Origin: an uncultured Elusimicrobia bacterium | Lineage (GTDB): Bacteria; Elusimicrobiota; Elusimicrobia; Elusimicrobiales; Elusimicrobiaceae | Assembly (NCBI GenBank): GCA_945913025.1 | Contig: CAMECJ010000001.1 | Coordinates: 1 to 64,000 of the forward strand | Reading direction: 5' to 3' | Length of the DNA stretch: 64,000 bases | Part shown: in pieces, positions 1 to 55 of the stretch | Numbering within the stretch: position 1 is the first letter of the stretch | Layout of the letters: each line of letters begins with the position of its first letter | Notes under the pieces: generated by a model | The model's database searches: none | The model's input: the letters and a program-made list of their open reading frames with translations, nothing else | What the model was told of the DNA's origin: nothing | Program-made: the position numbers and the translations under genes

Positions 1-55
1 TGTCTGTCTGTCTGTCTGTCTGTCTGTCTGTCTGTCTGTCTGTCTGTCTGTCTGT
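1..55. repeat. Tetranucleotide tract (TGTC)13 plus TGT inside the methyltransferase gene
   Basis: Bases 1-52 are 13 exact TGTC units, followed by TGT; the tract may continue left of the window. On the coding strand it reads GACA repeats, encoding Thr-Asp-Arg-Gln cyclically with no stop in any frame. It lies after the last recognisable methyltransferase residues (GKDLVYSFNKETTIQ). Because four is not a multiple of three, a change in copy number alters the frame of whatever C-terminus follows. Confidence 0.97.

Follow-up and report, generated by a model that had tools for sequence, protein, structure and literature searches.

When a methyltransferase gene contains a repeat tract, the tract is usually interpreted as an on/off switch. 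In the Helicobacter pylori Type IIG genes JHP1272 (Hpy99XIV) and HP1353-HP1354 (HpyAXVI), an on/off tract is accompanied by a late specificity tract, which was shown to alter recognition through the introduction of a TRD-like C-terminal part (PMC3936762). Phase variation of the C-terminus is also known in Helicobacter canadensis (PMC2823697) and Neisseria gonorrhoeae (PMC5320596). In the locus described here, a late tetranucleotide tract is likely to be a frame selector, which would swap three tails, probably with different DNA targets, instead of turning the gene off. The window is the whole 64-kb stretch of DNA that was analysed, and the gene is continued on a second contig, C2, of the same assembly (G000). 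The features of the locus are as follows.

Window 1–55, minus strand: candidate frame selector, a tetranucleotide tract with the coding-strand unit GACA, continued on G000:C2:1–54
Window 56–1118, minus strand: body of the EcoRI-family adenine methyltransferase (PF13651), including a hypervariable middle cassette and the conserved anchor ..MGVPISFLDKYCPEQFEIV
Window 1119–1160, minus strand: heptamer tract (CGGCGTT)6, GAACGCC on the coding strand, putative on/off switch
Window 1175–1177, minus strand: probable ATG start codon, ahead of the heptamer tract
Window 1185–1189, minus strand: ribosome-binding site AGGAG
Stop at C2:105: tail A, terminal strand PYFRILVRR (PYFRILVRRI)
Stop at C2:199: tail B, terminal strand KYARILIL, ending NGERAYVNGERKYARILILNRNPGND
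Stop at C2:272: tail C, terminal strand TYARITIRK, ending IKNAEGKINGRITYARITIRKRKQL
G000:C2:269–1429: DUF262-HNH nuclease gene (GmrSD_N and HNH domains)

The methyltransferase belongs to the family PF13651 (EcoRI_methylase), whose profile it matched over positions 1–326 of 345 (E = 6.8e-120). The homologues were found in many phyla, with 62–81% identity in the best segment. Their alignment showed conserved bodies, a conserved NPPF motif, and two hypervariable stretches: the middle cassette, between NPPF and WFTN, and the C-terminal tail, between PEQFEI and the terminal strand YxRILIRKK. The tails fall into mosaic, length-variable classes common to several phyla, on conserved bodies. AlphaFold predicts one beta strand for the anchor and another for the terminal motif, with the variable part in between, and models the tail at moderate or low confidence. 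The model of the Saccharibacteria homologue L092 with tail B in frame had a mean pLDDT of 65, with much of the switched tail below 50. The sequence search of the PDB with the family profile gave no match at E ≤ 1, and Foldseek against the PDB gave nothing at E ≤ 0.001. VIA-align placed residues of about 27–324 on M.TaqI-like cores (Z 9.1, rmsd 3.1, 148–152 aligned); this match was tied with many other methyltransferases, and the aligned span excludes the C-terminal part. NCBIfam has no family for the methyltransferase, phage records gave partial body matches only, and PADLOC labelled the gene pair MTase_II and REase_II by homology.

The initial annotation described a TGTC tract of more than 13 units near the 3′-end of the methyltransferase gene. 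This tract was confirmed as (TGTC)13.75 with 100% matches at window positions 1–55, the exact left end of the 398-kb contig G000:C1. It lies on the minus strand, past the last conserved segment (..FEIVAFRKGTDGKDLVYSFNKETTI) of the PF13651 methyltransferase. It was the only tetranucleotide array of at least four units in the 64-kb window, and (TGTC)5 matched in two places only of the 1.76-Mb assembly, namely this tract and the start of contig C2. The left end of C2 carries the complementary 54-nt tract, (CAGA)n, followed by the missing tail of the methyltransferase and the DUF262-HNH nuclease gene. Because the assembly broke inside the tract, the two pieces set a lower bound of about 14 units on its length, which may be greater. 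Their sizes of 55 and 54 nt suggest that the word size of the assembler was the limit.

In the relative G054, the methyltransferase, the DUF262-HNH nuclease and the next gene of C2 (presumably rimP, judged by its sequence) lie on one contig in the same order. Homology and synteny thus indicate that C1 and C2 are neighbours. The locus L027 is this same 9,790-base contig (G054:C19), from a congeneric public genome of an uncultured Elusimicrobia bacterium. At about 1240–1320 of L027, the terminal strand GIYKRIIIKRK lies out of frame at a short CA run, and the tail of this methyltransferase is either off or frameshifted.

The continuation on C2 allowed the three frames past position 1 to be translated. 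The tract had been described as open in all three frames, and this was borne out: the frames end at C2 positions 105, 199 and 272, none stops at once, and the terminal strand of the family is reproduced in all three. GACA, like every unit found at the tail site, is stop-free in any frame, and whichever frame is read, translation of the repeat gives the same hydrophilic linker, (QTDR)n. Which tail follows depends on the unit number modulo 3. A frame-shifting tract near the 3′-end with a different C-terminus in each frame places the gene among candidate cases of C-terminal phase variation. Tail C ends in a stop codon that overlaps the nuclease ATG (ATGA, G000:C2 269–272), and the tail phase might affect nuclease translation by coupling via this overlap.

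The first slippage tract of the gene, also named in the initial annotation, was found as (CGGCGTT)6 at 1119–1160. With 6 copies the ATG is out of frame and reading ends after 29 codons, so the gene is OFF as assembled. With 5 or 8 copies the ATG is in frame and reading runs into the methyltransferase. The number of heptamer copies decides the frame of the ATG, and the proposed combination of on/off and tail switching therefore holds at the sequence level. Heptamer and octamer tracts (AACACGC, GTGTTGC and GCAAGTTC) were also observed near the 5′-ends of EcoRI-family methyltransferases in Alysiella crassa (Neisseriaceae), at L047 (126 bases from its start), G093:C105 and L116 (G093:C1). Elsewhere in the window, the ORF at 2833–3315 has a type IV pilin-like N-terminus.

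Selection was assessed by comparing the amino-acid identity of each frame with simulations that placed the same substitutions at random, in five homologous arrays (G000, G045, G025, G186 and L192). Each segment was conserved in a single frame: A in frame A (z = 10.9), B in frame B (z = 14.1) and C in frame C (z = 20.5), values that come from pairwise comparisons of five related sequences and overstate independence. The substitutions indicate that purifying selection hands over sharply from A to B to C, exactly at each tail. When the Saccharibacteria arrays L065 and L092 are compared, most differences within the B segment are at third positions of frame B, and most of those within the C segment are at third positions of frame C. 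By this measure, the two arrays are an independent array type that repeats the hand-over of selection from B to C. Tails B and C of L092 closely match the sole tails of the fixed homologues L086 and L220 (z = 19 and 22), which indicates that the switch chooses among tails that serve elsewhere as sole tails. The tail B of the present genome gave no clear match to a fixed tail outside the terminal strand (z = 1.1).

The three-tail layout was found at the same site in at least 10 further genomes or contigs, from Elusimicrobia, Gastranaerophilales, Saccharibacteria and viral contigs. The other repeats at the tail site are GA, CA, AAGC and GAACA. The arrays are listed below.

G045: (AG)27 and three tails
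L037, Gastranaerophilales genome: (AG)8 and three tails
L065, Saccharibacteria: (GA)9.5 and three tails
L092, Saccharibacteria: (GA)13.5 and three tails
G376, G328 and G186: frame-shifting repeat and three tails
G025, G213 and G331: repeat and three tails, each split over two contigs
L192, viral-collection contig: (GAACA)7 and three tails
L230, viral-collection contig: (CA)21 and three tails
L228: ends in (GACA)14 at the equivalent position

Among distinct loci with contiguous sequence, three tails were present in 7/7 with a frame-shifting repeat and in 0/113 without one (Fisher p = 1.3e-10). Chance was considered as the origin of the layout and rejected. One further repeat locus has a trinucleotide repeat and a single tail; it falls outside the frame-shifting class because a trinucleotide cannot shift the frame. 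In L201 and L224, one frame is dead and the other two lead to usable tails. L225, which has lost the tract, and L144, with a repeat-like linker and a single tail, are possible decayed arrays and were left out of the counts. The related species L065 and L092 differ in their tracts, (GA)9.5 against (GA)13.5, and as assembled L065 reads tail A and L092 reads tail B; natural alleles in different phases therefore exist. In both, the B and C cassettes start with a copy of the anchor, MGVPISFLDKY.P.QF.

The nuclease gene lies 3′ of the methyltransferase at 74 of the 75 loci with room for it. Its product has an N-terminal GmrSD_N part (PF03235) and a C-terminal HNH domain (PF01844). No DUF1524 match was reported in it, which sets it apart from GmrSD-type (Type IV) enzymes, defined by DUF262 with DUF1524. 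The nuclease has no hypervariable region. Its identity tracks the methyltransferase body (rho = 0.47), and no covariation was found with the tail (rho = −0.09) or the middle cassette (rho = −0.06; permutation p = 0.97). The pair thus departs from Type II R-M pairs with independent nuclease recognition, in which the specificity of the nuclease matches that of the methyltransferase and covaries with it. In the Treponema contig L041, a second EcoRI-family C-terminus lies about 4 kb before the matched methyltransferase, which suggests two EcoRI-family systems side by side.

Because its variation is not linked to that of the tail, the nuclease is probably guided by the specificity of the methyltransferase, and the lack of covariation fits a specificity that resides in the methyltransferase. 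Between L063 and L082, the nucleases are practically identical and the bodies 97% identical, whereas the middle and tail cassettes are unrelated. If the cassettes set methylation specificity, pairs of this kind would endanger the host whenever the nuclease had a fixed specificity of its own. Therefore, either specificity is not set by the cassettes or the nuclease borrows that of the methyltransferase. Mosaic cassettes are typical of target-recognition modules, as in HsdS and Mod proteins. For this reason, and given the precedent of the late tract in H. pylori, our analysis clearly favours borrowing. The hypervariability and the lack of nuclease covariation could have another cause.

That the tract is an assembly artefact would agree with its position exactly at a contig end in a 27-contig draft, but this explanation is practically excluded. 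Contig C2 carries the complementary tract end and continues the gene as expected, and contiguous tracts stand at the equivalent site in relatives. The assemblies of G025, G213, G331 and L228 also break there, as expected if the tract exceeds the word of the assembler. The tract thus lies at a contig end because it is long, and an artefact was rejected; by the sequence of C2, none of the frames after it stops immediately either. It is also very unlikely that the tract is an ordinary on/off contingency element, with the canonical tail in frame A as the only functional one and the other frames as dead ends. The tail class of frame A is present in fixed relatives such as L067, and L201 and L224 do have a dead frame. 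However, purifying selection acts on frames B and C in their own segments, both carry the terminal strand of the family, and several assembled arrays have tail B or C in frame. The selection on frames B and C contradicts a simple on/off switch, which was rejected. The proposal in the initial annotation that slippage would swap up to three C-termini rather than switch the gene off is thus supported by the three tails on C2, the homologous arrays and the selection on each frame.

The tails may instead switch without altering DNA specificity, and tune activity, stability or the contact with the DUF262-HNH protein or an anti-restriction protein. The absence of nuclease-tail covariation would follow at once if the tails were unrelated to recognition, and the PDB profile search (E ≤ 1) yielded no structure of the family with DNA in which to place the tail. 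We nevertheless regard this as rather improbable, since mosaic, length-variable tail classes across phyla on conserved bodies are the usual mark of a recognition module, and a frame-switched C-terminal part changes specificity in the H. pylori Type IIG enzymes (PMC3936762). The three tails represent alternative versions of a single hypervariable module, which probably recognises the target. We lean towards a three-state, frame-selected specificity switch with three TRD-like cassettes, in which the methyltransferase dictates the specificity of the nuclease. Its layout would have been kept across at least three phyla while the repeat units (GA, CA, TGTC, AAGC, GAACA) were replaced.

In the proposed frame-selected switch, slipped-strand gain or loss of one GACA unit would shift the downstream frame. 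The ribosome would then continue into A, B or C, the tail cassettes that follow one another after the tract. A complete enzyme is expected from every phase, each time with another variable tail, because each cassette ends in the closing C-terminal beta strand of the family. The adjacent DUF262-HNH nuclease would take its specificity from the methyltransferase, so that methylation and restriction would change target together, and the upstream heptamer tract would turn the whole gene on or off. In this scheme, slippage in living cells, the role of the tail in DNA specificity, and the joint action of nuclease and methyltransferase are inferred. One tract would thus allow the gene to produce three working enzymes, and the heptamer tract would raise the number of its states to four, in a setting of poorly cultured gut lineages. 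The results suggest a widespread two-gene restriction-modification family that keeps specificity in the methyltransferase alone, and for this reason tail swapping would be tolerable. Long repeats split such genes at contig ends, and such switches are therefore easily missed in short-read assemblies.

In the openly accessible literature, no three-frame tail switch, no phase variation in Saccharibacteria and no phase-variable PF13651 enzyme was found. As far as this literature shows, the novelty lies in the three alternative tails, each selected in its own frame, in the enzyme family and repeat units involved, and in the occurrence across phyla. The H. pylori Type IIG genes share with the present gene two repeat tracts in one adenine methyltransferase gene, but they encode a fused restriction-methylation enzyme and use homopolymers with two states, a short or an extended tail (PMC3936762). 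The present system has a separate EcoRI-family methyltransferase with a DUF262-HNH neighbour in place of the Type IIG fusion, a tetranucleotide (or GA, CA, AAGC or GAACA) as the repeat, and three selected tails, whose change of specificity is inferred. In NgoAV, a poly-G tract in the Type I hsdS gene likewise alters methylation specificity by repeat length rather than turning it off, but the outcome is a truncated or full-length specificity subunit without alternative cassettes (PMC7394358). Inverting Type I hsdS loci resemble the present reading in having several recognition cassettes with one combination expressed; they switch by recombination between inverted repeats, whereas the present locus would switch by reading frame (PMC7394358, PMC4190663). 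In H. canadensis and N. gonorrhoeae, as here, a late tract changes the C-terminus via three frames (PMC2823697, PMC5320596). Their tracts are homopolymers and their tails are mostly of a few residues, with alternatives that carry no evidence of being homologous modules, whereas all three tails of the present gene are selected versions of one conserved element.
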